The translations under genes and the position numbers were made by a program. Shown here piece after piece: positions 20,121 through 60,200 of a DNA stretch of 64,000 nt. The notes under the pieces were generated by a model. It saw only the letters and a program-made list of their open reading frames with translations, searched no databases and was not told the origin of the DNA. Source of the stretch: Neocallimastix lanati (nom. inval.) (Eukaryota > Neocallimastigomycota > Neocallimastigomycetes > Neocallimastigales > Neocallimastigaceae); NCBI GenBank assembly GCA_016946835.1, contig JACVTC010000075.1, positions 227,501 to 291,500 on the forward strand, written 5' to 3'. Every line of letters begins with the position of its first letter. Within the stretch, counting starts at the first letter, position 1.

Positions 20121-22550
20121 GTGGATGAATCAATTTATCAAGATATTGAGGATTTAGAATCTGCCTTTGATATGATCAAGAAACTGGAAGAGATTAACCA
20201 AGAGGCAGATGAACTAATTGTAGAGAAATTAATAAAGAAACTGAAAATTATGAAGCCTCGAAACTATATGGAAGTTTTAAAATGTTTATCTGACATGTTA
20301 AACACTTTTAACAAACTTAAAACCGCCAATTACGATATGAGTGAAAATGACAAGATCCAATATATGTTCAAGGCGCTACCAAAGGAATTACAAATTGCTT
20401 TCCTGCTTGAACCTGGTAAAACAGCTGAAGAATATTATGATCTCATCAAATCAAGAAATATATTTATTAGATGCATGAATGAACAAAAAATAATCAAGCC
20501 ACAAATTAACCATAATAATCGTAACAATTATAATAACTACGATGATTCCATGGATTTAGACCTAGTATTTAACAGAAATAATAGGTATAAAAGCCACAGA
20601 CAAAATAATTCTCAACGAAGAAGAATTCCAACTAAATACTGTCATATTTGTAACCAACGTGGTCATTTAACAAATGAATGCCATTACAACGGGAGAACAA
20701 ACGGAGCCATGAATCAAACTAAATTTAATAATAATAATAATAATGACTATAATAACAGATTTAATAACAATAATTATAATAATAATAAATTTAATAATAA
20801 TTATGATAAAAATAATAATAAAAATTATAAAAATAATAATAAAAATTATAATAAAAATTATAAAAATCGTAATAATTATATTAATAACATTGAAAATAAC
20901 AATTTACCTGTTGATTATGATGATGACATAAATTATGAAAATTTAAGTCACATGATTAACAATAGTCTTGATAGTGTTGAATTTTTAAATAACTTAAATA
21001 AATCTACTCATAACCTTAATAATTATAAAAATGATAAAAATAAATTAAATAAAAATTTTAATAATAATCTTAATAATTATGAAAGTAAAAATAATAATTT
21101 ACATAAAGAACTTAATAATGATATAAATTACACTAATAATACTAATTATATTAATAATTATGATAACAATAACAATTGCCCTACTAATGACAACAACGAA
21201 TCAACTTGGATCTATGATTCTGGTGCAATTGTTCATATTACTAATGACCGAAGTTTATTAACTAACTTTAAAAAATACAAAATTAATTTAACATGTGCCA
21301 ACAATTCTGAAATGGAATTCGAGGGATTTGGAACATACAAAGGCTCAATTAACGGTTATGACATTACTTTAAGTAAAGTATTTTATTCTAGGCACGCAAA
21401 CAAAAATTTAATTAGTGGTATACAATTTGCCTACACTGAACTAATATCAATTACTAAACTTATTAACAATGAGCCACATCTTATCATTACGGATAATGAT
21501 AATAATATTATTAATACTTATAGGTCAATTGATGGAAGAAACACATTTAGAATCAAAATAAACAATAAATATAATAACTTAATTATGAACACCAATAATG
21601 ATAATCTTTGGCATAGAAGACTTGGTCACTTCTATCACAAAGATTTATCAAAATTTATAAAGGAACACACCACAAGTCATAATAACAATGACAATAATTG
21701 TATTACTTGTGGAATAGCTAAAATGAAAAGGTTACCTCACAACAGGGTAACTCCTAAAGCTACCAAGTTATTAGATGTTATCCACTCCGACATTGTTGGT
21801 CCTTTCCCGGATTCATTTTTTGGTTTTAAATTCATCATTACTTTCATTGATGAATTCTCTAGGAAAGCCTGGATTTTTACTATGAAAAGAAAATCAGATG
21901 CCATCGATATTATTATTAATTTTTTCAAATATTTAAATAATCTTTTTCCAAATTATAAAATTACTAATTTCAAATCGGACCAAGGAAAAGAATATTGTAG
22001 TAGAAGAGTCAACAAATTCTGTAAAAAGAATGGTATTAGAAAACTCTATTCTCCTCCAAGAAATCCTCAAAATAATGGAATTGCTGAACGATTTAATCAA
22101 ACCATTCTTTATTCCCTAAAATGTTTATTAAGCTGGAGTAAACTCAACATTAAATTTTGGGATTTTGCTATCCGTTATTCAAAATATCTTTATAATCTTA
22201 CTCCTCATTCAGGAATAAATAATCAAATTCCCAATGAAGTATTTTATGGTACTCCCATTCATGTTAATCATATTAAAGTTTTTGGATGCATCGCTTATTA
22301 TAAGGATTTCTCTCCCAAGAAAGGAAAATTAGATCCTAACGCTAAAAAAGGTTTTTTCTTAGGTTTCAGTAATGATTCTAATTCTTATTTAATAATGGAC
22401 TATAATAATTTTTCTCTACATCAAGTAAGAGAAGTATTATTTCAAGAAGACACCCCTGCCTGCATTACTAAAGATATTACAAAAAGAATTTCGCCTTATG
22501 TTAAAGACAATAATAATAAATTAAATTTATGCTTATCAACAAATTATTAA
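20121..22550 (+). CDS. Copia-C gag, protease and integrase
   Basis: 809 residues; the frame is open from about 20070, and the GTG at 20121 is not a likely natural start because gag sequence continues upstream. CCHC knuckle CHICNQRGHLTNEC (about 174-187), long Asn-rich linker (about 190-355), protease STWIYDSGA (about 362-370), integrase zinc region LWHRRLGH...CITCGIAK (about 496-535), core residues in HSDIVGP (about 555), KSDQGKEY (about 619) and NGIAERFNQ (about 656). All three catalytic acids are present. It ends 22 bases after the RT frame begins and contains an in-phase slippery heptamer. Confidence 0.93.
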   Translation: MDESIYQDIEDLESAFDMIKKLEEINQEADELIVEKLIKKLKIMKPRNYMEVLKCLSDMLNTFNKLKTANYDMSENDKIQYMFKALPKELQIAFLLEPGKTAEEYYDLIKSRNIFIRCMNEQKIIKPQINHNNRNNYNNYDDSMDLDLVFNRNNRYKSHRQNNSQRRRIPTKYCHICNQRGHLTNECHYNGRTNGAMNQTKFNNNNNNDYNNRFNNNNYNNNKFNNNYDKNNNKNYKNNNKNYNKNYKNRNNYINNIENNNLPVDYDDDINYENLSHMINNSLDSVEFLNNLNKSTHNLNNYKNDKNKLNKNFNNNLNNYESKNNNLHKELNNDINYTNNTNYINNYDNNNNCPTNDNNESTWIYDSGAIVHITNDRSLLTNFKKYKINLTCANNSEMEFEGFGTYKGSINGYDITLSKVFYSRHANKNLISGIQFAYTELISITKLINNEPHLIITDNDNNIINTYRSIDGRNTFRIKINNKYNNLIMNTNNDNLWHRRLGHFYHKDLSKFIKEHTTSHNNNDNNCITCGIAKMKRLPHNRVTPKATKLLDVIHSDIVGPFPDSFFGFKFIITFIDEFSRKAWIFTMKRKSDAIDIIINFFKYLNNLFPNYKITNFKSDQGKEYCSRRVNKFCKKNGIRKLYSPPRNPQNNGIAERFNQTILYSLKCLLSWSKLNIKFWDFAIRYSKYLYNLTPHSGINNQIPNEVFYGTPIHVNHIKVFGCIAYYKDFSPKKGKLDPNAKKGFFLGFSNDSNSYLIMDYNNFSLHQVREVLFQEDTPACITKDITKRISPYVKDNNNKLNLCLSTNY
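22523..22529 (+). promoter_or_regulatory. Candidate -1 ribosomal frameshift site A AAT TTA
   Basis: In the gag-PR-IN frame the codons are AAT (22524) and TTA (22527), so A AAT TTA is in the correct phase for a canonical X XXY YYZ slip. A -1 move gives AAA TTT ATG CTT, which is the frame of the RT-RNase H ORF. The site lies within the 31-base window (22520-22550) where both frames are open. No stem was recognised downstream, and A/T-rich heptamers are common here. Confidence 0.4.
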
Positions 22551-22922
22551 GCAATTATACAAATAATAATATACATAATAATAATAATATCAACAACAAT
22601 TATGACAATAATGACGATAATTATTTTATTCCTGACAATAATAATATCATTAATATTCCTGATAATCCACCTAATAATATTAATATTCATAATAATATTC
22701 CTAATAATGATATTCATAATAATAATTATAATAATAATTCTCCTGATGATTATAATGTTAATAATAATAACTTTAACAATAATTTAAATATTGATAATTA
22801 TAATATTTCAAATCAAAATAATAATAATAATTTTTCATATCAAAATAATGAAAAAAATTTAATTAATAAAAATTTGTCAAAAAATGAACAAAATTTAAAT
22901 AATAATAATTTCAATAATAATT

Positions 22923-22969
<47 letters not shown>

Positions 22970-25057
22970 TTAATATACGATAAAAATTTTTCAAATAATT
23001 TTATTAATTCTAATAGCAATAATCTTATTGGCTCAAAAATTCAATACAATGGTAAAAAATTTTCTGATACAATAAATTCTGAATTTAATCAAAATTTAGA
23101 AAATTTTAATCAAAATACAAATACCAATACAATAACCAATGAAAATTTTTCCAACACCAAAAATTTTTCTAATCCAAATTATGTACAAAATTCTAATAAT
23201 AAAAAATTTTTAATTAATGAAAATTTTAATTCAAAAAATGATCAAAATTTTATTAATAAAAATTTTTTATCAGTAGAAGATAAAAATAATAATAATATTA
23301 ATAATTTTATTAATAATAATTCAAATAATAATAACATAAATATTTATAGAAATAATAAAAGAAAATCCAAATTTTCCAATAATAATATTATTAAACACTT
23401 CAAACCTAATATTAATAATAATAATATTGATATTTACAATAATAATAATAATCATAATAATATTATTTCTTATAATAATAATCCTAATAATTTTAATTAC
23501 AACAATGATAATTTAATTAATACTATTGAAACTGAAAATGAAGAAGTTCCGAAAACCGATCAAAAAGCTCTCAATTGTGATCATGCCAATAAATGGGATA
23601 TTGCTATCCAAGAAGAACTCAAAAATTTATATGATAATAATACAATGACTTTTGTTAAAAAACTACCAAGAGGAAAACAACCAATTTCTACAAGATGGGT
23701 TTTTGCAATTAAAAAGGATGCAAATAATAAAATTATTAAAAGAAAGGTCAGACTTGTTGCAAGAGGTTTTGCTCAAAGATACGGTATCGATTATGAACTT
23801 ACATATAGTCCGACATTAAACGTTGATTGTATAAAATTACTTCTCGCTTTTGCTGCTCAATTTCAATGGACTGTTTATCAATTAGATTTTAAATCTGCCT
23901 ATCTAAACGCCGCCTTAGACAAAGAAATTTACACCGAAATTCCTTACGGCGATGAAAACTACGGTAAAGGCTATTGGATTCTAAATAAGGCATTGTACTG
24001 CCTTAAACAATCAGGCCGCCAGTGGAATAAAACCATTACAAAATTTTTAACTGAAAACAAATTTCATCAATCCACCACTGATCCATGTGTTTTCTTTAAA
24101 AAGCAGAAGGAAGAACTAACTTGTATTATAGGACTTTATGTTGATGATATGCTAATTATAGGTGAAAATTTCGAAATTGTTAGAATTGTTTCAAGAATTA
24201 AAGATAACTTTAAGGTATCAAAATGTGGATTTGCTGACTTCATATTAGGAATTAAAATAGAAAGAGAAAATAATGATATTTATATCTCACAAGAAGCATT
24301 CATTGATAATCTGTTAAATAAATATAATATAAATAATAAAAAGAAAATAAAATCACCATGTTCAGTGAACGAAAATAATGAAGATAATGAACCTGTTGAC
24401 AAAATAAAATTCAAAAGTATTATTGGTTCCTTAATTTATCTTGCAAGATGTACACGTCCAGACATTGCATTTGCTGTTAACTTTGCCGCTAGAAAATCAG
24501 AAAATCCAACTCAAGCCGACTGGAAAAAAGCTATTAAAATATTAAAATACTTAAATGGAACAAAACATTATAAAATAAGATATGACGGTAAAGGTAAAAT
24601 AAATGCGCATACAGATTCAGATTTTGCCGGTGATCCAAATGATAGAAAATCTACTTCAGGACACATTATCTTAATGGGTACAAATCCTATTTCATGGTAT
24701 TCTAAAAAACAAACAACTGTCGCAACGTCTACTGCCGAAGCTGAATATTTAAGTACTACAGAATGTATTAAGAAAGTATTACAAATTAAAAATCTACTTT
24801 ATGAATTATTTGGAGAAACTGAAACTATAGACATATACACGGATAATGAAGCAAGCAAAAGTAGCATTGAAGCAGGTCATTTAAATCCAAAGCTTAGACA
24901 TATTAGTGTTAGCTACCATTTCAACAATGAAAATATATTAAATAAAAATGTTCAACTAAAATATATTAGTACAAATGATATGCTGGCCGATCCATTAACC
25001 AAAAACCTTAATGGAAACAAAATAACTAATTTTACAAATAAAATTTTTATAAAATAA
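22529..25057 (+). CDS. Copia-C reverse transcriptase and RNase H
   Basis: 842 residues from the first ATG in the frame. Residues 1-345 are an almost pure Asn-rich linker. RT runs from about 346 (KWDIAIQEELKNLYDNN, TRWVFAIKKD, YQLDFKSAYLNA) with YVDDMLIIG near 538. RNase H follows with HTDSDFAGD near 695, STAEAEYLS and IYTDNEASKS, and ends in ADPLTKNLNG. No stops. Its start codon is probably not used; copia pol is normally fused to gag, and Copia-A keeps both parts in one frame. The frame change is either a programmed -1 slip or an indel in the AAT-rich linker. Confidence 0.93.
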
Positions 25058-32204: not shown

Positions 32205-32495
32205 ATAGAAAAGACTTTTTATCATTATTAAAAGTTAATGAGTTAATAGTAATCGTAATAATTTATGTTCTTTTTTATTTAGAAGTCAATGTCTATTATT
32301 AATTATTATTAGTAAATTTTTTTTTTCTTGTAAAAGAAAAATAAAGGAAAGAAAGGAAAAGAATTGGATATAGATCATGATTATACTAATACTATTTTTT
32401 TTTTTTTTTTTTTAATAAGAATGAATAATATCAATAATAAAAAGATAAAGCAGAAAAAATAATGACAAAAAAAATGCTAATTTATTTTTTATTAT
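29186..32495. other. AT-rich spacer with scattered simple repeats
   Basis: No coding motif was found. It includes poly-T (about 29,666-29,688), TAATAATCAATTATAATATA repeats (31,495-31,570), AAAT/AATA tracts (32,044-32,126) and a poly-A near 32,172-32,202. About 40 bases at 31,668-31,708 (AACACAAAATATAAATTGC) recur at 38,563-38,600 beside Copia-D, a hint of another element relic. Confidence 0.55.
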
Positions 32496-32751
32496 AAATA
32501 AAATAAAATAAAATAAAATAAAATAAAATAAAATAAAATAAAATAAAATAAAATAAAATAAAATAAAATAAAATAAAATAAAATAAAATAAAATAAAATA
32601 AAATAAAATAAAATAAAATAAAATAAAATAAAATAAAATAAAATAAAATAAAATAAAATAAAATAAAATAAAATAAAATAAAATAAAATAAAATAAAATA
32701 AAATAAAATAAAATAAAATAAAATAAAATAAAATAAAATAAAATAAAATAA
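32496..32751. repeat. Pure (AAAAT)n array, about 51 units
   Basis: An essentially perfect pentanucleotide array of about 255 bases. Five bases per unit means all three frames of one strand can stay open, which creates a spurious ORF on the minus strand. Confidence 0.97.
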
Positions 32752-32759
32752 ATATATAT

Positions 32760-32876
32760 ATTCATAGTAATTATTTAACTATTCATGGTAATTATTTAAA
32801 TATTCATGGTAATTATTTAAATATTCGTAGTAATTATTTATATGTTCATAGTAATTATTTAACTATTCATTGTTAT
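32760..32876. repeat. 21-bp tandem repeat
   Basis: About five and a half units of ATTCATGGTAATTATTTAA with small changes, directly next to the pentamer array. Confidence 0.85.
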
Positions 32877-33352: not shown

Positions 33353-34783
33353 ATGTCTGAAGTTGATAAGAGAGATTTAGAAGCCAAAGGTTTCTACAAA
33401 CTTTCTTGGGTTCAAAGATTCGGTTTCGCTTCTGGTGATTTAGCCCAAAATTTAATTTATCAAACCGTTGCCTCTCAACTTATGTTCTTCTGTACCGATG
33501 TTTATATTTTAGGTGGTGATAGAAGTAAAGCTGCTGGTATTGCATCTACTTTGATGTTAATTGTTCGTTTTGTTGATATGGTTTGGGATCCAATTGTTGG
33601 TGCTTTCATTGATAAGCATCACCCACGTTGGGGTAAATACCGTTCCTACTTAATTATTGGTGGTATTCCTTTAACCGTTTTCTCTGCTCTTACCTTCTGG
33701 AATAAATTTGCTCCATCTGTTCCATACATCTACATTACCTACATCTTATTATCTTTATCTTACACTTTAGTTAACGTTCCATATGGTGCTATTAACTCTT
33801 CCTTAACTAGAGATAATGATGAAATTACCATGCTTACTTCTCTTCGTATGTGGTGTGCTAACATTGGTTGCTTCTTCGTATACACCTTACTTTTCCTTTT
33901 CATTGCCATTGTTGGTGGTACCCCAATTCCATGGGATATGATTCTTTTCAACTTATTTGGTAACATTCCAAATCTCTGTATTGTTCCATTCATGCCAGCT
34001 ATTAAGAATTTAATTGGTAAGAAGAACATGTTCTACGTCTTCTTAACTGTTGCCGTCGCTGGTAATGCTATCTTATACGTTGCTAGTAGAATGAATGCTA
34101 ATGACTGGTGGTACCGTATTGGTAATTTAATTAAATCCACTGGTGTTTGTGTTGCTACCGGTTACCAATGGGCTCTTGTTCCAGAAGTTATTTCCTACGG
34201 TGAATGGAAGACTGGTCGTAGAATTTCCGCTATTGTTAACGCTATTACTGGTTTATTCTTCAAGGCCGGTTTTGCTTTAGGTGGTGCTATTCCAGGTTGG
34301 ATTATTCAAGCTTCCGGATACGTTTCACCACCAGCTGGAGAAAGTACTTTACCAAAGGATCCAATGGCTTGGTTCACTACTTTATCTATTTACTTTGTCA
34401 TCGGTTTCATCATTCTTATCTTCTGTTTCACTCAAACCAAGGAACGTGTTGTCATGGAAGAGGGTCAAACCAATTCCGTCAAGGTTAGTGATTTCTGGAC
34501 TGAATTCGCTCGTAACCCACCACTTGTTGTCGTCTCCCTCTTCTTCATTGTTTCATTCGTTATGCAAAACATTAGTAACACCTCTAACAACTACTTAATG
34601 AACGATCTTTACAAGCAAAAGGCCTCTGCTCAAGAAGCCATTCGTTGGACTGTCTGTGTCATTCCAGCTATTCTTGCTATTGTTTGTATGATTATTATTT
34701 CCAGATACAGTTTAACTGATGAAAAGATTGAAAAGATCAACAAGGAAATCGAAGAAAGAAATGCCGTTAAGGACAGTGCTTAA
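33353..34783 (+). CDS. GPH-family sugar:cation symporter, apparently block-permuted
   Basis: 476 residues, intronless, in C- and G-containing codons unlike the surroundings, which suggests high expression and a gene under selection. Family marks: FGFASGDLAQN near the start, DPIVGAFIDKHHPRWGKYR (79-96), LGKK-type GKK at 222-224, YGEWKTGRR (282-290) and QTKERV (361-366). The GPH (MelB/XynP/YicJ, MFS_2) family imports glycosides, pentosides or hexuronides with Na+ or H+ across the plasma membrane. In known members TKERV lies in the central loop after helix 6, before GKK and EWKTGKR; here it comes after both. The order appears to be helices 1-5 (1-190), 8-11 (193-330), 6-7 (335-420), 12 (428-452). 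Both swapped blocks hold an even number of helices, so topology could be kept. Likely acquired from bacteria; substrate cannot be read. Family call firm, permutation by eye. Confidence 0.93.
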   Translation: MSEVDKRDLEAKGFYKLSWVQRFGFASGDLAQNLIYQTVASQLMFFCTDVYILGGDRSKAAGIASTLMLIVRFVDMVWDPIVGAFIDKHHPRWGKYRSYLIIGGIPLTVFSALTFWNKFAPSVPYIYITYILLSLSYTLVNVPYGAINSSLTRDNDEITMLTSLRMWCANIGCFFVYTLLFLFIAIVGGTPIPWDMILFNLFGNIPNLCIVPFMPAIKNLIGKKNMFYVFLTVAVAGNAILYVASRMNANDWWYRIGNLIKSTGVCVATGYQWALVPEVISYGEWKTGRRISAIVNAITGLFFKAGFALGGAIPGWIIQASGYVSPPAGESTLPKDPMAWFTTLSIYFVIGFIILIFCFTQTKERVVMEEGQTNSVKVSDFWTEFARNPPLVVVSLFFIVSFVMQNISNTSNNYLMNDLYKQKASAQEAIRWTVCVIPAILAIVCMIIISRYSLTDEKIEKINKEIEERNAVKDSA

Positions 34784-45072: not shown

Positions 45073-48000
45073 CTACGTTATGAGATTCGAGGACGAAATG
45101 GCCTCTAACTCTTCCCATTCATCGAAGATAACTCCATGTGGATGAAAATTATCATTCGAATCTGTATCAGAATTTCTTCTTTGCCTTATCGTTACGACGT
45201 CGACGCTCTTGACAACGGTAGGTCTAACACTATACAAATCGATCATGGTGTAAAAATCACCAATCACAATAGGCATAACGTTAGTAAGGAATTCCGCAAG
45301 CCCCACAAAATATGAAATCGGGAAAGAAGACTCGTTCGAAGGTGATTGAAAAATATTATTAATAAATCGCCTTCTTTCCCCCGAGCCGATCTTTAAGATT
45401 TCAAATACTGCATTTCCGCCAAGAAGGAGACACAGCACGTAAAAATTGATATTATCATCAAAATCTTCCTCTTTATCATCAGGAATGTTCAATGATTTCT
45501 CATGAACAATTAGAGAAAAATTAATAAAAATTTCATCAACAAAGGGAATGAAATGTTGCCTAAATTCTTCAAATTTAGGACATAAAAGTATCCAGTGTGT
45601 AAAACTAGGTATGCTGTTACTCTCACCACAACAAGGGCAGTATGTTGGGCAATTTTCTGATACTAGATTACTTTTAACATACGTTTTTACATCAAATTTG
45701 AATCCACATTTAATTCGTCCAATCCAAAAAAATCCAAGAGAAAATTGTGAATATTTAAGTGATAGACGATGAATAAATTTTTTAAAACCAAATTTAAATT
45801 TCTTGTATTTTGTAGATCTGATCGCAGGAATGCTTGAATAATGAATATTTTCCCAGTAAAACTTCCTTATTTCTCCAGGAAGTTTATTATTGTGCTTGTG
45901 TACTGCTAAACTCCGTGCTTTTTTCGTCCATGAATAGTGAGAAAGTGTAGGTATATTTTTGACTAAATGAGAAATAATACAAGAAGAATCTTTCCACTTT
46001 TTAAAGCATCGAATCATCGCCTTAGCACAAAAACTAGCTATAGGAGGTATAGAAAGTTCCTTAGACATATTATAAATTGAAGTATTGGAGGTTTTATTTT
46101 TAAACCCGAAACTCCAATACAAACCTCGATTAAAAGCAGTTTGAGCTTTTTCAGTATTCTTTTTATTTGAACCAAGTAAGGGAGCATAATAAAGAACTGA
46201 ACTAAGGACAAAAGAAACTAGTATACGAGTTTTAAAGTAGAAAGGAACATTCCTATTGGTTAAAAATCTAAAGAAAGAGTTAACTGTATAATTAATTTTA
46301 CTATTCATCTTAGCAATAATAGGTTTTAAATCCAACGATTCATTAAAAGGTATACCAAGATATGTATATTGATTAGTGCTTGGTATATAGTTCATACCAA
46401 GTCTAAATGTAGGATTTTCATAATGTCTTGAAGGTATAAAATTCTTTGGTTTAACAACTAGTGTAGCGCATTTATTGATTCCAAAGGTCATTTCATTTTT
46501 AATACCCCAATCATGAGCAATATTCAAAAGGTTTTTAAGTGAAGATTTTGTAGGAGCTAATAATACAATATCATCAGCAAATAATCCACCACAACACTTT
46601 TTCTTTTCAGTAATCACACCATAACTTTTACATTTATCAAAAATATCATTGATAAATATATTGAATAAAATAGGTGAGAGAGGACACCCTTGGCGAACAC
46701 CACGGTGTATTGGAAATTCTTTTGAAAGTTTACCATTAAAGTTTGCACGAGCTTTCGAGGTAAGGTATAGATTAGTAATGAATTGAAGGCATTTACCACG
46801 AATACCAAGATTATTTAGTTTAGTAAGTATATTATAAATTGGAACTGAATCATAAGCTTTTTTAAGGTCAAGAAAGGCAAGAAAGGTAAATTTATCCTTA
46901 AATTTTCTTCTTTGACAAATTTCACGAATGGATACAAATAAACTAATACATTCTTCTTTATTTCTAAAACCAAACTGTTCTAGTCTAATTATTTCATTAG
47001 AAAAAGCATAGTCCGATATTCTTTTAGTGACAATTTTTGATAGAATTTTTAAACCTACATTGATGAGTGAAATACCACGATAATTATTACAATCTGAAAG
47101 ATCCCCTTTTTTAGGAATAGAAACAATAGAAGCAGAGTTCCATTCATTAGGAAAGTCACCATCCCAAATTTTATTAAAAAGTAATAACAGACACTTTGCA
47201 CAATCGGAATAAGTAACCTCTTGATTAGAGTCATCCTGAGAAGAAGTACTACTCTCAGAATTAAAAAATGCTTTAAAAAATTCTGTAGGTATACCATCAG
47301 GACCAGGTGCTTTGTTATTTTTCATTGAAAGAAAAGTTGAATGAATTTCTGACATGGAAATAGGTTGATTAATATCCCATGATTCCTGAGGAGTAGAAGA
47401 ATTATTAAGTATTCTTTTCCAATAATTTTCATTAAGACTGTGACCAGTTATATCAGAAGCAAGTTCTTCATAGTGTTCTGCAAAACGATTGAGTTGATCT
47501 TCTTGGGATACTAGAACATTACCTTCTTTATCTTTAATGTATACAGGTGATTGGGAAGGAGAGTAAGAAGGTTTAGAGATTTTCTTAAGTCCAGACCAAC
47601 CACGCTGGGCATCATTTTTTAAGAAACATTCGCCGATGGAATGAATCAAATTTTTAAATCTAATAATCCTAATATTTCTTTTAATACTAATGATATAATC
47701 AGAAAGAACTCTATATTCTTTTGAGAGATCACAAAATTCTTGAAGATTAGACAAATCATTACTAAGTTTAAAATTTTTAATCCTTTTATAAAATAAATGT
47801 TTTTCATGTGATAATTTCTTAATATAAGCAGGACAATGGAACGCTGAACCCTGTAAATTTGTAGGAACTCTTGCTTGAATGTCATCGCCTACTTTATTTG
47901 CTGTGTCAAGAAGTTTTTTAATCATTGTATTAGAGTCTAGATTATCATTATGTTCAAATTCATCCAGTAAACATGTGAATTTATTATGAGAGAAGATTGC

Positions 48001-48810
48001 TTCACGTTTATCCCTACAAATTCGATTAGACCACTTAATTTGTTTATCCCGAGGGGGAGTAACAAAACCATCAGGAGATATTTTTTTACAAGAAAGAATA
48101 AGTGGTAAATGGTCAGAGATGTCATTAAAAGAGTAGCATACAGAAGCAATATTCAGATAATTTCTTAATTTATCGTTCACTACTATAAAATCAATACAAG
48201 AATTCTTTCCACCATTAGACCAAGTAAATTGATGACCAACCATATCCATAACAAACCATTGAGGGGAAATTCTAAGAATAAGATCTTTGAGTTGTTGCTT
48301 AGTCATGTTGAAATCACCAACAATAGCCGAAGGGTTATTCTGATGGTTCTTGAGCCAATTAGCAAAATCAGTTTCCGCTTTTTCTCTAGAGTCTTTGTGT
48401 TTTTTGCTAGGGATGTAAATGTTCCCTAAAGAACATCTGACACCCCAAAAAGAGAATATATTTACTGAGAGTATATATCTATATTCAAAATCATCATTAT
48501 TGAATTGGCAGGAGGAGTACACACCTATATAAAGGCCCCTCATACCAGGGATTTTTTTGTCCGCACGTCTCAGTACTGTTCTATAATGATTAAGGAATGG
48601 ATGTGAGTTAGAAAAAGAGTTAAGGAATGAACTATTACCGACTTCTTGAAGACAAATACAAATAGGATTAAAGATTGAATTAAAATTGGTAAGTCCGTCA
48701 CGTTTTTCAGAATTCCAACCATTTATGTTCCAGCTAATACAGAGGTTGAAATATTTAGTATTCGAGAAAGGGTTAGCATACAGGAGGCTTTCAGAGATGG
48801 GATTGAGGGT
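45073..48810 (-). CDS. LINE-1 ORF2: endonuclease-reverse transcriptase
   Basis: The frame is open from 48810 to the stop at 45073; the first ATG is at 48543 and gives 1156 residues. Upstream of that ATG the frame already encodes the endonuclease start (LCISWNINGW near 48,720, with the catalytic Asn; QEVGNSS near 48,640), so 48543 is probably not the true start. From the ATG: GNIYIPSKK, IVGDFN (about 76), SCIDFIVVND and ISDHLPL complete the APE endonuclease; RT has KAPGPDGIPTEFF (about 413), NNYRGISL, KAYDSV (about 562), GVRQGCPLSPILFN (about 617) and FADDIVLL (about 655); a CCHC-type motif (CPCC...THWILLC) is near 965-985. The protein nicks the target and copies the element RNA. It overlaps ORF1 by 88 bases in the -1 frame. 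Confidence 0.93.
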   Translation of the reverse strand, partial: TLNPISESLLYANPFSNTKYFNLCISWNINGWNSEKRDGLTNFNSIFNPICICLQEVGNSSFLNSFSNSHPFLNHYRTVLRRADKKIPGMRGLYIGVYSSCQFNNDDFEYRYILSVNIFSFWGVRCSLGNIYIPSKKHKDSREKAETDFANWLKNHQNNPSAIVGDFNMTKQQLKDLILRISPQWFVMDMVGHQFTWSNGGKNSCIDFIVVNDKLRNYLNIASVCYSFNDISDHLPLILSCKKISPDGFVTPPRDKQIKWSNRICRDKREAIFSHNKFTCLLDEFEHNDNLDSNTMIKKLLDTANKVGDDIQARVPTNLQGSAFHCPAYIKKLSHEKHLFYKRIKNFKLSNDLSNLQEFCDLSKEYRVLSDYIISIKRNIRIIRFKNLIHSIGECFLKNDAQRGWSGLKKISKPSYSPSQSPVYIKDKEGNVLVSQEDQLNRFAEHYEELASDITGHSLNENYWKRILNNSSTPQESWDINQPISMSEIHSTFLSMKNNKAPGPDGIPTEFFKAFFNSESSTSSQDDSNQEVTYSDCAKCLLLLFNKIWDGDFPNEWNSASIVSIPKKGDLSDCNNYRGISLINVGLKILSKIVTKRISDYAFSNEIIRLEQFGFRNKEECISLFVSIREICQRRKFKDKFTFLAFLDLKKAYDSVPIYNILTKLNNLGIRGKCLQFITNLYLTSKARANFNGKLSKEFPIHRGVRQGCPLSPILFNIFINDIFDKCKSYGVITEKKKCCGGLFADDIVLLAPTKSSLKNLLNIAHDWGIKNEMTFGINKCATLVVKPKNFIPSRHYENPTFRLGMNYIPSTNQYTYLGIPFNESLDLKPIIAKMNSKINYTVNSFFRFLTNRNVPFYFKTRILVSFVLSSVLYYAPLLGSNKKNTEKAQTAFNRGLYWSFGFKNKTSNTSIYNMSKELSIPPIASFCAKAMIRCFKKWKDSSCIISHLVKNIPTLSHYSWTKKARSLAVHKHNNKLPGEIRKFYWENIHYSSIPAIRSTKYKKFKFGFKKFIHRLSLKYSQFSLGFFWIGRIKCGFKFDVKTYVKSNLVSENCPTYCPCCGESNSIPSFTHWILLCPKFEEFRQHFIPFVDEIFINFSLIVHEKSLNIPDDKEEDFDDNINFYVLCLLLGGNAVFEILKIGSGERRRFINNIFQSPSNESSFPISYFVGLAEFLTNVMPIVIGDFYTMIDLYSVRPTVVKSVDVVTIRQRRNSDTDSNDNFHPHGVIFDEWEELEAISSSNLIT

Positions 48811-50668: not shown

Positions 50669-51240
50669 TTATTGTATTATGCATCTATTATTATTTTGCT
50701 TTTTATGAAATGGGAAACAACTATAGTAATTTTTATTTTTATTTTTATGATTTTTTATTTCATTCTTTTTCATAATTTTTGGTTTTTTGTCCAATACTTT
50801 TATATTATTTTCATTAATATTTATTTTTCGTAATGTTGCTTCATTTACTTTTCCATTTTTGTCATATTGAATATAATCGACTCTTTGTATATATTGTGGT
50901 ATTAAATTATTTGAAATTTTGTTTTCTAAATAATTCTTTATGTCTATATCATTAATTATAATTGATGAAATATAATAGCAAGTTATGATCTCATTATTAT
51001 TTTCATCCATTGTTTTTGTTAAAACTACATCTTCAATGTTATCCATTTGTTTTATTATATTTCTAATTTTAAGAAGTTTTTCGTTTGTAATTTTATTAAC
51101 ACTCCTATTATATTCATTTGACTTAATATTAATTTTTAATGATTCATCATCATTATATCTATCACTATTGTTTATTGTATTATTCTGCTTATTGTTGATT
51201 TTTAATGATTCCTTATCGTAATATTTATCATTATTGTTCA
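50669..51240 (-). other. NRPS C-terminal tail: repeat, orphan A-domain piece, CaaX-like end
   Basis: A 20-residue imperfect repeat (DKYYDKESLKIN / DRYNDDESLKIN) is followed by sequence like the small C-terminal subdomain of A domains (IEDVVLTKTMDENNNE, YDKNGKVNEATLRK in the place of NGKLDRRAL). A Lys/Asn/His-rich segment and RCIIQ-stop end the protein. Cys at 50681-50683 is fourth from the end. Confidence 0.75.
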
Positions 51241-54200
51241 TTTGATTGTTACTATTTAATAAATTTTTAATTTCACATAAATTTTTATTGAAATAGAATA
51301 AATTTTCAATTTCATTCAAGTTCTTTGTCAAAAAGTCAAGATTATTAAGAATATAAATACATTCTTCTTTCATATCATCAACAATTGTTTTATCTGGTGC
51401 TGAAATTGTAATAGATACTGATTGTTCATTTTCATTAACAAGGAATCCATAATCATATATGCTTGTTACATTGTTACGATAATTAGAAAGAGCATCAAAT
51501 GGTAATAATTTTTCATTTTCTTTTGTTACAGGTATTAAAATATTACTTTCATTGTTATTATTATTTACATTTGAATGCGTCAATAAGCGAGGATTAAATT
51601 GGAAATAATTCTTTGGTTTAGGAATACCTAATTTATTAGATATATCATAAAACGAAATATCTAAATTATATAATTCCATTAAAACTTTAAAGTTATTTTG
51701 AACATTTTCAATAAAACTTTTTTCTTTATTCACTTTTGATAAAATAGGAATAAAGTTTACAAACATACCGATTAAATTCTTCTTATAAATATTATTTCTG
51801 TTAGAGTTAATTAATACACTGTAGGTACCATCTTCATTATTTACATATTTTGAAATAATTAAAAGATAAAGAGTATAATAGAATGCTTCTTTTGAAAGTT
51901 TATTCTTAACAATCAATTCATTTATGTTATTTGAAATGGAATTATCTATTTCAAAGGTTATTTTTTCATCTTTCATTTTCATTGAATCAATTTTGTTATT
52001 AATTAATATTTTATTATTAAACATTTCTTTATAATATTCAAACTGATCGTTAAATTTACCATTTTTTAATTTTTCATTATAATAAATTGCATAATCCGTA
52101 TATTGAATAGGCAATTCATCTAATATTTCATTGTTATATAGTTGATTAAATTCATTACATAATATACCTAATGAATATCCATCACCAATGATATGATTGA
52201 TATCAATCATTAAGATTTTATTTTCAATTATTCCAATTCGAATTAATTGATCTTTAAAAAGATCATAATTTCTAATAAATAAGTGTGCATTTTCTTTAGT
52301 ATATTGCTCAATAGATAGAGTTTCAGATTTTTCTATTTTACCATATATTTCAATTTCATCATTTTCTTTAATATAATAAAGTCTAGTTTTTAATATATCA
52401 TGTCTATTATATATTTTATTTAAAATTTTGATGACTTTATCTATTTCAATATTATTATTTATTTCATAAAATATAATCACATTACTTTCATTATTTTCAA
52501 TTTTTCCAATATTGAAAGATTTAATGTCATCTTTTGTATTTAATCCTAGTTGTTGAGATATTATTGGATATTCATTTTTACCATATCTAGTAATGATTTC
52601 AATACTATCTTCATTATTTTTTAGTTTTTCATCAATATATTTACCTAATAATTCAATGGTTTCGTTTTTCAATATATCTTTCATTCCTATTTTTATTAAG
52701 AATTCTTTTTGAATTTCAGCTAAAAGTCTAATTGCAATTAAACTATCTCCACCTAATTCATAGAAATCTGAAGTTTTACCAATTTTATTTTCTTCAATTT
52801 TTAATATCTTGGAATATAATGTAACTAGCTTCTTTTCAGTTTCAGTTTCAGCTTCAACATAGTCATTTATAATTAAATCATTTTCAGTAGGTTCCGGTAA
52901 AGCTCTTCTATCTAATTTACCATTTATGGTAGTTGGGATTTCTGGAATTTCAATAAAGTAATTTGGAATCATATATTGTGGTAATTTTGATTTTAAATAA
53001 TTTCTTATTTTATTTTTATTAATATCTACTTCTGGATTAACAATATAATATCCAACTAAATATTTATCATTCTGGTTTCTAACTTTATCAATTACTACGC
53101 ATGTGTCAATTTCCTTTATTGATTTCATTACTTCTTCAATTTCTCCTAATTCAATTCTATGACCATGAATCTTCACTTGAAAATCGATTCTACCAAGACA
53201 GATAACTTCTCCATTATTTGTCCATTTACCGATATCACCAGTTCTATATAATTTATTATAAGTATCATTTGGATCACCTCTGAATGGATTTGAAATAAAT
53301 CTTTCATTCGTAAGTTTTTCTCTATTCAAATATCCACTACCAACACCTTTACCTCCAATATATATTTCTCCTTCAACTCCAACTGGCACCGGTTTCATAT
53401 ATTCATCTAAAATGTAAATTTCACCATTACATATAGGATAACCAACACTGTAATTAATGAAATTTTCTTTATCTATAGGTAAAATGGAACAATGCATTGT
53501 AGCTTCACTTGGTCCATATTCATTATAAAATGAAATACTATCATATGGTATTAATTCTATAATTTTTTTGAAGTTTAAAATTTCACCTCCAAACTTAATT
53601 GTCTTAAGATTTACTAATGATTTTAAGAATTTTTCATTTATAACATAATTTTCAAATCTTGAAGGAGTTAAAACCATGTATTCTACTTTATAGTTATGGA
53701 TTAATTTTGAAATGTATTCGGGATTATTTATGTTTTCAGAATTGCATATCACACATTCTTTATTAATATATAGAGGATAAATTAATTCAGCTAACGAAAT
53801 ATCAAATGTAAAGTTCGAAATTGACAATGATGTATTAAATTTATCTCTATAATAGTGATTATTATTCTTTGAGAGTGATATATTACAATAATTTAACAAA
53901 TTATCATGACGAATAATGGTTCCCTTAGGTTTTCCCGTGGTTCCTGAGGTAAATAATACATAGCAAATATCCCTAATATCATTGATACTTTCTATATATT
54001 CAATTTCATTTTCGTAATTCATTAATTTCAAATCAACAACATTAAACTTTTCATTTAAAAATTTGATATTATTTTCAGTAATACAATCTAAGTACTTTAA
54101 TATGATTTTAGGTTTCACCTCATCTATCATATAAGAAATTCTATCTTCTGGGAATTCTGGATCAATAGGAAGGAAGGCTCCTCCCGCTTTAGAAATACCT

Positions 54201-57200
54201 AAGATCGCAACAACATATATATAAGATCTTTCACTAATCACTGGAATGATATCATTTCTTCCAATACCGTGCTTTCTTAAATACCATCCTAAAGCATTAC
54301 TCATTTCATCTAACTTTCTATAAGTAATCTTTTCATCATTAAATACGATGGCACATTTCTCTGGATTACAAATGGCATTTTCATGAATTTGTTCATGATA
54401 TAACTGGTCGGAAGTGATGTCATGTTGATTAGAATTAAATCCATACACAATTTCTTTGTATATAGAAGGTTCAATATATGGAATTTCACTTGATTTTTCA
54501 TTGTACTCTTCAATATGATTAATTATTTCAATGAAACTATTTCCGATATTTTCAATAACTTCCTTATCATTTTTATTTTTATTATATTCAATTGAAATAT
54601 TATAATTATTCTTATTTTCAATGACATTAAATGAAATATCAAATTTTAATTTATCATTATTAAATATTTCCATATTATTCTTTATTTCTTCATTATTTGT
54701 AGATTCACTATTAATGAAAATTTCTGAATTTTTCTGTATTAATTCTTGAATAGATATACTTTCAATCATTTGTTTACCCTTAGATTCAGTTCCATTCATT
54801 AAAGAATAAGGTTGATAAATAAATGAATTGTTACTATTTGGAATTTTAATGTTTTTCATAATTTCGGTGAATGAAATATCTTCATTTTCATATATTTTCA
54901 TTAATAGTTCTTTAATATTTTTCATATATTGATCCATGCTACTATTATTATCATATTTCAATAATAATGGTTGAGTACTAACAAACATTCCAATCATGCC
55001 AATGGTGTTTTGATTATTTCTGTTAGCATTCATTATTGAAGTGTAAATATTTGTTTCACCACTGTATTTACTCATAATATAACCATAAATGGTGAGGAAG
55101 AATGAGGTTACGGTTAAATTATTTCTCTTGACATATTCTTTTATTAATTTACTTTGATCTTCGGAAATTTTTTTTTCAATGAATGAGGATTCAATATAAT
55201 CTTCTTTTACATATTTCTTATCCTGTTCATTCTCTCTTATACGATTATCTGGTAATGATAATTCTTTAATTTCTTCATTTCCGAATAATTCTTTGTAGAA
55301 TGTTATTTGATTTTCATATTTTCCTTTTTCAATTTTATCATTCATATAAATGGCATAATCAATGAATGAGATATCATTATCTTCATTAATATCTTCATTG
55401 ACCTCCTTATTATTATTATTATAAATTTCATTCATTTCATCGATAAAGATTGTTCCTGAAAATCCATCAAATATAATATGATGAATATCAATTAATAAAT
55501 ATTGTTCTTCAATAAATCCAACTCTGATTAATGGTCCTTCTTCAAGATTGAATGGTCTAACAAAATTGATAGCGTTTTCGATGGAATATTCTTCAAATTT
55601 AAATTTATTTTCAAATTCTTCATCAATAATACCATATATTTTACTTTCTTCATTGTTTATTTTTTCATCTTTGAAAATACTCTTCAAAACTTTATGATAT
55701 GAAATTAATTTCATAATACTTTCTTTTAATCTTGCCTTATCAATTGTTTCATTCAATTTATAGATATTTGGAATATTATAAATAATACTATTTTCATTTT
55801 TAATTGAATCTAAATAAACCCCCATTTGTTGAGAAGTTATTGGATATTTATTCTGACCATAATTAGGAATGATTTCTATGATTTGTTCGTTGTTCTTCAT
55901 TTCATCAATATATTTTCCTAATAATTCAATGGTTTCATTTTTCAAAATATCTTTCATTCTTATAGATATTTTGAATTCTTTTTGAATTTCAGCTAAAAGT
56001 CTAATAGCAATTAAACTATCTCCACCTAATTCATAGAAATCTGAAGTTTTACCAATTTTATTTTCTTCAATTTTTAATATCTTGGAATATAATGTAACTA
56101 GCTTCTTTTCAGTTTCAGTTTCAGCTTCAACATAGTCATTTATAATTAAATCATTTTCAGTAGGTTCCGGTAAAGCTCTTCTATCTAATTTACCATTTAT
56201 GGTAGTTGGAATTTCTGGAATTTCAATAAAGTAATTAGGAATCATATATTGTGGTAATTTTGTTTTTAAATAATTTCTTATTTTATTTTTATTAATATTC
56301 ATTTTTGGATTAACGATATAATATCCAACTAAATATTTATCATTCTGGTTTCTAACTTTATCAATTACTACGCATGTGTCAATTTCCTTTATTGATTTCA
56401 TTACTTCTTCAATTTCTCCTAATTCAATTCTATGACCATGAATCTTCACTTGAAAATCGATTCTACCAAGACAGATAACTTCTCCATTATTTGTCCATTT
56501 ACCGATATCACCAGTTCTATATAATTTATTATAAGTATCATTTATATCACCTCTGAATGGATTTGGAAGGAAATGTTCTTTATTAAGTTCTTCTTTATTC
56601 AAATATCCATTACCTACACCTTTACCTCCAATATATATTTCTCCTTCAACTCCAACTGGCACCGGTTTCATATATTCATCTAAAATGTAAATTTCACCAT
56701 TACATATAGGATAACCAACACTATAATTAATGAAATTTTCTTTATCTATTGGTAATACGGTACAATTTACTGTAGTTTCAGTTGGTCCATATTCATTATA
56801 AAATGAAATACTATCATAAGGAATTAATTGTTTAATTTTTTGGAAATTCAAAATTTCACCTCCAAATATAATTATCTTAAGATTTACTAAAGATTTTAAA
56901 AATTTTTCATTTATAACATAATTTTCAAATCTTGAAGGAGTTAAAGCTATATATTCCACTTTATAGTTGTGGATTAATTTTGAAATGTATTCTGGATTAT
57001 TCATGTTTTCGGAATTGCATATTATACATTCTTTATTAATATATAGTGGATAAATTAATTCAGCTAACGAAATATCAAATGTAAAGTTCGAAATTGACAA
57101 TGATGTATTAAATTTATCTCTATAATAGTGATTATTATTCTTTGAGAGTGATATATTACAATAATTTAACAAATTATCATGACGAATAATGGTTCCCTTA

Positions 57201-60200
57201 GGTTTTCCCGTGGTTCCTGAGGTAAATAATACATAGCAAATATCCCTAATATCATTGATACTTTCTATATATTCAATTTTATTTTCATAATTCATTAATT
57301 TCAAATCAACAACATTAAACTTTTCATTTAAAAATTTAATATTATCATCAGTTAAGTAATCCAAGTATTTTAATATGATTTTAGGTTTTACTTCTTCTAT
57401 CATATAAGAAATTCTATCTTCTGGGAATTCTGGATCAATAGGAAGGAACGCACCCCCGGCCTTAGAAATACCTAAAATTGCAATAATATACATATAAGAT
57501 CTTTCACTAATCACTGGAATGATATCATTTCTTCCAATACCGTGCTTTCTTAAATACCATCCTAAAGCATTACTCATTTCATCTAACTTTCCATAAGTAA
57601 TCTTTTCATCATTAAATACGATGGCACATTTCTCTGGATTACAAATGGCATTTTCATGAATTTGTTCATGATACAATTTATTGGAACTGATGTCATGTTG
57701 ATTAGAATTAAATCCATATACAATTTCTTTGTATATAGCGGGTTCAATATATGGAATTTCACTTGATTTTTCATTGTACTCTTCAATATGATTAATTATT
57801 TCAATGAAACTATTTCCGATATTTTCAATAACTTCCTTATCATTTTTATTTTTATTATATTCAATTGAAATATTATAATTATTCTTATTTTCAATGACAT
57901 TAAATGAAATATCAAATTTTAATTTATCATTATTAAATATTTCCATATTATTCTTAATTTCTTCATTATTTGTAGATTCACTATTAATGAAAATTTCTGA
58001 ATTTTTCTGTATTAATTCTTGTATAGATATACTTTCAATCATTTGTTTACCCTTAGATTCAGTTCCATTCATTAAAGAATAAGGTTGATAAATAAATGAA
58101 TTGTTACTATTTGGAATTTTAATGTTTTTCATAATTTCGGTGAATGAAATATCTTCATTTTCATATATTTTCATTAATAGTTCTTTAATATTTTTCATAT
58201 ATTGATCCATGCTACTATTATTATCATATTTCAATAATAATGGTTGAGTACTAACAAACATTCCAATCATGCCAATGGTGTTTTGATTATTTCTGTTAGC
58301 ATTCATTATTGAAGTGTAAATATTTGTTTCACCACTGTATTTACTCATAATATAACCATAAATGGTGAGGAAGAATGAGGTTACGGTTAAATTATTTCTC
58401 TTGACATATTCTTTTATTAATTTACTTTGATTTTCGGAAATTTCTTTTTCAATGAATGAGGATTCAATATAATCTTCTTTTATATATTTCTTATCCTGTT
58501 CATTCTCTCTAATACGATCATCTGGTAATGATAATTCTTTAATTTCTTCATTTTCGACTAATTCTTTGTAGAATATTATTTGATTTTCATATTTTCCTTT
58601 TTCAATTTTATCATTCATATAAATGGCATAATCAATGAATGAGATATCATTATCTTCATTAATATATATATCTTCATTGACCTCCTTATTATTATTATTA
58701 TAAATTTCATTCATTTCATCAATAAAGATTGTTCCTGAAAATCCATCAAAGACAATATGATGAATATCAATTAATAAATATTGTTCTTCAATAAATCCAA
58801 CTCTGATTAATGGTCCTTCTTCAAGATTGAATGGTCTAACAAAATTGATAGCATTTTCAATGGAATATTCTTCAAATTTAAATTTATATTCAAATTCTTC
58901 ATCAATAATACCATATATTTTACTTTCTTCTTCATTAATCTTTTCATCCTTAAAAATACTTTTAAGCACTCTATGTTTAGAAATTAATTTCATAATACTT
59001 TCTTTTAATCTTTCCTTATCTATATTTTCATTAAATTTATAGATATTTGGAATATTATAAATAATACTATTTTCATTTTTAATTGAATCTAAATAAACCC
59101 CCATTTGTTGAGAAGTTATTGGATATTTACTCTGACCATAACTAGGAATGATTTCAATGATTTGTTGTTCATTATTCTTAATTTCATCAATATGCTTACT
59201 TAATAATTCAATTGTTTCATTTTTCAAAATATCTTTCATTCTTATAGATATTTTGAATTCTTTTTGAATTTCAGCTAAAAGTCTAATTGCAATTAAACTA
59301 TCTCCACCTAATTCATAGAAATCTGAAGTTTTGCCGATTTTATTTTCTTCTATTTTCAATATCTTGGAATATAATGTAACTAGCTTCTTTTCAGTTTCAG
59401 TTTCAGCTTCAACATAGTCATTTATAATTAAATCATTTTCAGTAGGTTCCGGTAAAGCTCTTCTATCTAATTTACCATTTATGGTAGTTGGAATTTCTGG
59501 AATTTCAATAAAGTAATTAGGAATCATATAATTTGGTAATTTTGTTTTTAAATAATTTCTTATTTTATTTTTATTAATATTCATTTCTGGATTAACGATA
59601 TAATATCCAACTAAATATTTATCATTCTGGTTTCTAACTTTATCAATTACTACACATGTGTCAATTTCCTTTATTGATTTCATTACTTCTTCAATTTCTC
59701 CTAATTCAATTCTATGACCATGAATCTTCACTTGAAAATCGATTCTACCAAGACAGATAACTTCTCCATTATTTGTCCATTTACCGATATCACCAGTTCT
59801 ATATAATTTATTATAAGTATCATTTAGATCACCTCTGAATGGATTTGGAAGGAAGTGTTCTTTATTAAGTTCTTCTTTATTCAAATATCCATTACCTACA
59901 CCTTTACCTCCAATATATATTTCTCCTTCAACTCCAACTGGCACCGGTTTCATATATTCATCTAAAATGTAAATTTCACCATTACATATAGGATAACCAA
60001 CACTATAATTAATGAAATTTTCTTTATCTATTGGTAATACGGTACAATTCATTGTGGCTTCAGTTGGTCCATATTCATTATAAAATGAAATACTATCATA
60101 AGGAACCAATTCTATAATTTTTTGGAAATTCAAAATTTCACCACCTAATATTATAATATTAAGATTTACTAAAGATTTTAAGAATTTTTCATTTATAACA

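Follow-up and report, generated by a model that had tools for sequence, protein, structure and literature searches.

An open reading frame in the window, by which we mean the whole 64,000-nucleotide stretch of Neocallimastix lanati DNA that was analysed, encodes a homologue of the GPH (MFS_2) sugar:cation symporters in which transmembrane helices (TM) 6-7 and 8-11 have exchanged places, and the exchange is not an artefact. From the observed block order, conservation, distribution, gene neighbours and selection we infer, with considerable confidence, that the protein descends from a bacterial GPH symporter, that it has kept the fold and would import xylo-oligosaccharides, that the exchange arose via duplication, and that the fungus acquired the gene already permuted. 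The event that we propose is a non-circular permutation, in which two adjacent blocks with even numbers of helices would have been exchanged in a bacterial GPH symporter.

The 476-residue product of the frame is called P0001, and its sequence was divided into blocks N (TM1-5), A (TM6-7), B (TM8-11) and C (TM12), the helix numbers following the usual MelB layout (Table 1). P0001 matched a reference profile, built from only six E. coli GPH proteins (melB, yagG, uidB, yicJ, yihO and yihP of the annotated MG1655 genome), in four stretches, residues 16-189, 199-326, 338-414 and 413-474 corresponding to profile positions 4-174, 269-394, 179-254 and 390-450, respectively. The four stretches run 1, 3, 2, 4, which argues that P0001 is a permuted descendant of the GPH family and not an ordinary member of it. 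Block profiles gave the order N-B-A-C in P0001 and N-A-B-C in all six E. coli proteins. Both NCBIfam TIGR00792 (268.2 bits, cut-off 231.35) and Pfam MFS_2 (PF13347; 254.9 bits, cut-off 27) also matched P0001 in four stretches. When all 24 block orders of P0001 were scored against the profile, N-A-B-C was the best, giving a single match of 253.2 bits over profile positions 4-450, whereas the best stretch of the native order reached 113.1 bits; the permuted Prevotella protein P0026 behaved likewise (288.0 bits as N-A-B-C versus 147.0 in the native order). In the profile order both termini are in place and two inner blocks have been exchanged; the permutation is thus not a circular one. The possibility that TKERV and the last helices are an extra C-terminal hairpin behind a normal TM12 was excluded, since the last helix corresponds to profile positions 390-450.

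Table 1. Parts of the permuted symporter gene, in window coordinates.
Feature	Residues	Nucleotides	Strand	Basis
Permuted GPH symporter ORF, 476 aa		33353..34783	+	stop included; frame intact; profile matches
Block N, TM1-5	16-188	33398..33916	+	block profile match; order in full profile
Junction 1, linker TM5>TM8, predicted outside	189-198	33917..33946	+	block boundaries, linkers, hydropathy
Block B, TM8-11, with GKK and YGEWKTGRR, shifted forwards	199-325	33947..34327	+	motifs, profile order, block profile
Junction 2, linker TM11>TM6, predicted outside	326-338	34328..34366	+	block boundaries, linkers, hydropathy
Block A, TM6-7, with QTKERV of the central cytoplasmic loop, shifted backwards	339-414	34367..34594	+	motifs, profile order, block profile
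Junction 3, linker TM7>TM12, predicted outside	415-420	34595..34612	+	block boundaries, linkers, hydropathy
Block C, TM12 and SRYSLTDEKIEKINKEI tail	421-467	34613..34753	+	profile order, block profile

The first-pass annotation of this DNA had proposed the exchange of TM6-7 and TM8-11 in an intact frame. The frame is indeed open, GKK, YGEW and TKER begin at residues 222, 282 and 362, where they had been placed, and the exchange is borne out by the order of the stretches in the E. coli GPH, TIGR00792 and MFS_2 profiles as well as by the scoring of the 24 orders. The non-colinear profile alignment suggested as a check gave four stretches with each of these three canonical profiles, and no colinear full-length match of P0001 to the GPH family profile, the outcome that was to tell against the proposal, was obtained. 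Of the junctions predicted near nucleotides 33,920, 34,345 and 34,620, the first two fall inside linkers, whereas the third lies 8 nucleotides past the end of its linker.

The topology was assessed by a simple prediction that combines hydropathy peaks with the K+R charge of the loops. There were 12 hydropathy peaks in P0001 and 12 in P0026, and the alternate-loop sums of K+R were 27 inside and 10 outside in P0001 and 27 inside and 5 outside in P0026; by this prediction P0001 has the 12 helices and the two inside ends of the GPH family. All three joints are predicted to lie in outside (periplasmic) loops and link helices that end and start there, and helix orientation is therefore kept, so that the earlier claim of an unchanged membrane orientation agrees with the predicted outside position of the joints and with the K+R excess in the loops assigned to the inside. 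Median linker lengths in 370 permuted ORFs were 11 (TM5>TM8), 13 (TM11>TM6) and 6 residues (TM7>TM12), and those in 174 canonical ORFs were 13 (TM5>TM6), 14 (TM7>TM8) and 3 residues (TM11>TM12); these linker counts, like the residue counts given below, were made without thinning for similarity and include near-identical copies. In the examples inspected, an LPKDxxAWF-like lead-in moves with TM6 and a Q.PLAQEGI-like lead-in with TM12, as block exchange predicts. Two permuted frames, L103:5332-7419 (+) and L157:1486-3573 (-), are open for about 220-235 further residues at the N-terminus; their sources are one Verrucomicrobia MAG and one genome from the class of G003.

A misplaced block of 300 bp, or a faulty annotation, could mimic a permutation in an ordinary gene. 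The fungal genome (199 Mb, 762 contigs) carries 25 full-length copies at 98-100% identity on 7 contigs, the window's own included, and these represent 23 distinct nucleotide sequences; 202 codons vary among them, with the amino acid altered in 18. Further relatives at 51-56% identity and fragments are present in the same genome, and the order was N-B-A-C in 30 of the 30 fungal copies fetched. The best organism-named matches of P0001 were proteins of Neocallimastix californiae, among which the models P0003 (LY90DRAFT_515535) and P0004 (LY90DRAFT_677565) lack coding stretches that the 25 full-length copies contain; the missing stretches are probably false introns. These models are broken, but by missing stretches and not in their order, and we found no support for an artefact. 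The near-identical copies on separate contigs, together with the identical order found in isolates and MAGs of bacteria across many records, rule out the misassembly that the first-pass annotation had itself raised, and we give this explanation practically no credence. A rearrangement specific to the fungus was also rejected, because bacterial relatives carry the same order. As to the arrangement of the copies, 16 of the 25 lie on a single contig, C555 of G000, where nine alternate strictly in orientation between 479,940 and 515,997 and four are in mixed orientation between 634,237 and 651,538 (both groups within loci L005-L015, L019 and L020); a second copy lies about 80 kb from the first on the window's contig, C721.

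The permuted order is widespread in bacteria. A search with P0001 covered 5.8 billion proteins, of which 7997 candidates were scored and 4812 matched at E 0.001; the best 120 of these 4812 comprised 117 proteins with the order N-B-A-C, two with N-A-B-A-C and one truncated model. Among named prokaryote genomes, the best 80 of 522 relatives were all permuted (76 complete, 4 without block C), and they came from Prevotella and other Bacteroidales, Succinivibrio and its kin (Pseudomonadota), Verrucomicrobia and Kiritimatiellae. Permuted homologues beyond the window, which had been proposed as a further check, are therefore common to Bacteroidales, Succinivibrio, Verrucomicrobiota and Kiritimatiellota, making it most likely that the fungus received a gene that was already permuted. 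A distant permuted subfamily, with 43-46% identity to P0026, had the permuted order in 120 of 120 among the matches listed. Counts from genome samples are lower bounds, since each sample is a draw and scoring was confined to the best candidates of every genome: matches were found in 2 of 395 genomes sampled from the phylum of G001 at 1e-40 (the seed and one in canonical order), in 18 of 393 from its order (9 permuted, seed included, and 9 canonical), in 8 of 240 from the class of G003 (7 permuted, including the seed and two with an internal stop, and 1 partial), and in the seed alone among 185 from the class of G002 at 1e-35. When the 14-helix protein P0067 (described below) was the query, 108 of 399 genomes from the family of G001 matched at 1e-60; by match span, 57 genomes had the canonical form, 16 the main permuted form, 38 the distant permuted form and 1 an N fragment, and two transporter types occurred together in 4 of the 399. 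The reading by span was verified on 50 fetched loci, which gave 44 canonical and 6 permuted ORFs and 1 further ORF without block C.

Close relatives of canonical order were compared with the permuted proteins. Seven canonical kin were 66-80% identical to P0026 in every one of the four blocks, more than the fungal protein with its 57-62% per block; further-off canonical kin also exist, some of them, in the 399-genome set, at 53-58% identity to P0067. The xylan clusters that house canonical transporters are of the same kind as those that house permuted ones. In Prevotella locus L036, genes for a GDSL-type lipase/esterase, the transporter, a GH10 and a GH43 protein follow each other (Pfam-confirmed), and GH10, GH43 and GH67 genes lie near the Marinilabiliaceae copy L091 (Pfam). 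Searches with the L036 proteins located a GH10 or GH43 homologue no more than 4 kb away at 71 of 80 permuted loci (the best 80 of 522), 7 of the 80 having fewer than 1200 bases left downstream. GH10 or GH43 was also present near the gene in 5 of 6 regions of the distant permuted type, the sixth being a short contig, and a GH43 homologue, mostly adjoining the transporter, was present in 9 of 10 fetched regions of canonical kin. The exact gene order differs between clusters. The canonical kin of Bacteroidales xylan clusters (L135, L136, L168, P0135 and others) thus resemble the permuted proteins in per-block identity and in their GH10/GH43 neighbours; in contrast, they differ in block order, in the three outside linkers and in the column of MelB D55, which is mostly N in the kin.

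In Prevotella bryantii, XynD is described in passages of PMC8002723 as the inner-membrane importer of the XynA/XynB products, linked with xynA and xynB. The company of GH10 and GH43 genes and the proposed role are similar here. Given these neighbours and the P. bryantii set, import of xylo-oligosaccharides is our best guess, and the permuted transporter perhaps serves this function. In a tree of the GH43 partner gene, which made no decision on the root, canonical and permuted clusters were intermingled with 5 label changes, 4 of them forced by starred branches; transporter and partner gene have therefore been separated at times, and it looks as if the canonical and permuted forms could replace each other.

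In trees built from the re-ordered blocks, permuted proteins and canonical kin formed a single, fully supported clade, apart from the other GPH proteins included. The rows were thinned by identity (88%, 82% or 80% in different sets) and only ORFs with all four blocks were used; MelB was absent from the 44-, 57- and 65-row sets; the 44-row set was also without 5 fungal or fungus-like, 2 distant-type and 6 fast Verrucomicrobiota-type rows. In the 70-, 58- and 44-row trees, which contain few canonical kin, the canonical kin were nested within the permuted proteins with 2 changes; starred branches force 2 changes in the 70- and 58-row trees and 1 in the 44-row tree, and none of 200 bootstrap trees of the 44-row set had a single change. 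Such nesting would be expected if the canonical-order kin had returned to the old order after a permutation. However, the nesting turns round when more canonical kin are included: the permuted proteins of the 65-row tree were nested within the canonical ones in three places, with 3 changes that starred branches force. Moreover, when all permuted proteins were held together, the AU test gave p values of 0.234 (57 rows), 0.33 (44 rows, long branches removed) and 0.409 (65 rows), and the TM11>TM12 spacing of the canonical kin inspected was mostly the usual canonical one, with L249 and L251 as exceptions. We therefore regard a reversion as quite improbable. Since the AU test rejects a permuted clade in none of the sets, a single swap from the canonical order is possible and would be the simplest account.

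The three forced changes of the 65-row tree could instead indicate that the same exchange took place two or three times, in the main, L111-like and L128-like groups, and the L111-like group has an extended TM7>TM12 linker, of 14 residues in L111 and L255 and 11 in L091 and L105, where about 5-6 is usual. Although these differences would suit separate events, one permuted clade is acceptable in the same 65-row set, and of the 24 permuted proteins inspected, which represent all groups, 23 have a TM11>TM6 linker of 12-14 residues. Several independent swaps are thus unlikely in our judgement. A side observation concerns the exception L251, whose canonical-order frame (1074-2963, +) has an insert of about 130 residues in the outside TM11-TM12 loop; the TM6-7 hairpin occupies this place in the permuted proteins.

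Rare proteins with a 14-helix arrangement were also found, and they point to duplication as a possible route to the swap. The ORFs P0008, P0067, P0122 and P0161 have the order N-A-B-A-C, with a second TM6-7 hairpin in frame between TM11 and TM12, and P0067 has 14 hydropathy peaks. A search with P0067 returned 115 canonical proteins, 4 N-A-B-A-C proteins and 1 permuted protein among the 120 matches listed, and no match spanning the 14-helix form was seen in the 399 genomes from the family of G001. The linkers in the front part of the N-A-B-A-C ORFs resemble those of the canonical kin and the linkers in the back part those of the permuted kin, and P0067 is 97% identical to the permuted P0196 over half of its length; because of this, the four ORFs look like recombinants with a canonical front and a permuted back. 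They may possibly come from chimeric contigs. The same linkers and the P0067/P0196 identity led us to drop the idea that they are direct fossils of the ancestral intermediate. The swap itself would most likely have proceeded by in-frame tandem duplication of TM6-11 and subsequent loss of one copy of each block, the permuted N-B-A-C order resulting when an N-A-B-A-C form lost its first hairpin. A wider proposal, that MFS proteins are permutable in nature, the exchange having arisen repeatedly within one xylan-cluster lineage via 14-helix duplication or recombination intermediates and the two forms replacing each other in their gene clusters as natural topological isomers, seems to us conceivable but doubtful.

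The fungal proteins were located among the bacterial permuted ones in the 70- and 65-row trees, and near the base of the clade without resolution in the 58-row tree. Transfer of an already permuted gene from bacteria to the fungus would be the natural reading of this placement and is the most likely one, and the gene would then have been amplified in the fungus.

We asked how far the moved block has kept its pattern of conservation. The site conservation of the main permuted proteins correlated with that of the canonical kin at 0.70, 0.73, 0.71 and 0.67 in blocks N, A, B and C, and that of the distant permuted proteins at 0.47, 0.41, 0.46 and 0.46, respectively; the correlation of block A with outgroup GPH proteins was 0.40 for the main permuted proteins and 0.35 for the canonical kin. 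The effective sequences behind these values are few (7.5 for the canonical kin, 18.9 for the main permuted, 1.8 for the distant permuted and 30 for the outgroup). A changed pattern would be expected of a block A in new surroundings, and the correlations of the blocks are alike, indicating that the moved block conforms as well as the others do. The dN/dS ratio was 0.01-0.24 in 7 permuted pairs, with dS of at least 1 in several. Taken together with hydropathy and charge, the conservation patterns and low dN/dS suggest that the permuted protein functions as a transporter, its fold being the usual one and its outside loops re-wired. The many copies, the few amino-acid changes and the occurrence of bacterial relatives, permuted and canonical, in xylan clusters of one kind point in the same direction.

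According to this reading, all helices would stay where they were in the ancestral 12-helix MFS bundle and the outer loops alone would be re-wired, so that TM5 is followed directly by TM8, TM11 by TM6 and TM7 by TM12. The chain would then pass from one half-bundle to the other three times, twice by outside loops and once by an inside loop, where the usual wiring has a single crossing, and the outward-open state could be restrained by the two additional outside links. For MFS proteins, TM5-TM8 contacts have been described (in passages of PMC4889909), which fits with the short TM5>TM8 link. Since the fold of the permuted protein is deduced from sequence, the moved hairpin might instead pack anew, producing a different bundle or a domain-swapped dimer. 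We consider this very improbable, because the conservation of the moved block agrees with that of the canonical kin as well as that of the unmoved blocks does, and because the canonical kin and the permuted proteins occupy the same kind of gene cluster.

With the ancestral packing retained, transport would take place by ordinary alternating access, with a cation pocket on TM2 formed by D75 and D79. These residues of P0001 occupy the columns of MelB D55 and D59, which we take to be cation-site residues, so that the acidic pair is present. All 327 permuted rows have D in the D55 column, where 114 of the 126 canonical-kin rows have N; the D59 position of the permuted rows is D in 196 and S in 125, the latter being the number of distant-type rows. 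Because of these two differences, the cation site is not uniform throughout. Sugar-site residues of MelB are changed as well (D19>N, D124>N and W128>G), and equally so in the canonical kin.

P0001 resembles the known GPH/MFS_2 symporters (TIGR00792, PF13347; MelB, UidB, YagG, YicJ) in its four homologous blocks, its scores above the cut-offs, its 12 hydropathy peaks and D75/D79, and it differs from them in the order, N-B-A-C in place of N-A-B-C. Earlier work bears on such a re-ordering. The mix-and-match hypothesis (Madej 2013), according to which MFS helix units were assembled in differing orders, was rebutted by Vastermark and Saier in 2014 (both as given in passages of PMC3962082 and PMC4889909); it likewise involves re-ordered MFS helix units, but these are the three-helix units of FucP and LacY, whereas two- and four-helix blocks were moved here and the homology is plain in sequence. 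VKOR/DsbB offers a natural circular permutation, explained by duplication and deletion (PMC4555120, in part). There too, paired helices of helical membrane proteins have been permuted in nature, but the permutation is circular and ancient and affects enzymes of four helices, in contrast to a non-circular permutation of twelve helices that is recent enough for 66-80% identity. SWEET and PnuC have been treated as topological isomers, with a permutation involving TM2-5 envisaged, and circular and non-circular permutations of rhodopsin have been engineered (Mackin 2014), both as told in passages of PMC7162841. Helices are re-ordered and the bundle is kept in these cases also; however, the former is a suggestion from structures and the latter are man-made. 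In the same passages of PMC7162841 the authors state that, to their knowledge, no circular permutation had been observed in membrane proteins.

In the open literature, a scope outside which most subscription papers fall, we found no report of a TM6-7/TM8-11 permutation. Such a transporter is not mentioned in the available passages of a membrane proteome of an anaerobic fungus (PMC5168858), and in PMC9952236 the relevant word is confined to the reference list. As far as we have searched, this is an established transporter family with a previously undescribed wiring. The re-ordering of MFS helix units in evolution has so far been argued from structures; here are natural transporters that are 66-80% identical per block, belong to the same kind of cluster and differ in helix order, so that a direct comparison of folding, insertion and alternating access becomes possible for two wirings of a bundle that is probably the same. 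The suggested path, in which a hairpin is duplicated and the original lost, would show how a polytopic membrane protein can be rewired without loss of function, and such a gene would have passed between bacteria and a fungus and been amplified in the latter. It seems that a transporter has been rewired in nature and has stayed in use.

Several other ORFs in the window belong to retrotransposons. RVT_2 and integrase domains mark Ty1-copia-like ORFs at 2963-6898 (-) and 20172-25057 (+), an ORF at 8468-10906 (-) has a Ty3-type capsid, an SH3 domain and a chromodomain, and RVT_1 was found at 45076-48543 (-). One ORF of 4429 codons (50669-63958, -) fills most of the window's end, and the ORF at 32412-32765 (-) is a low-complexity stretch made up almost entirely of repeated FILFY-type residues.
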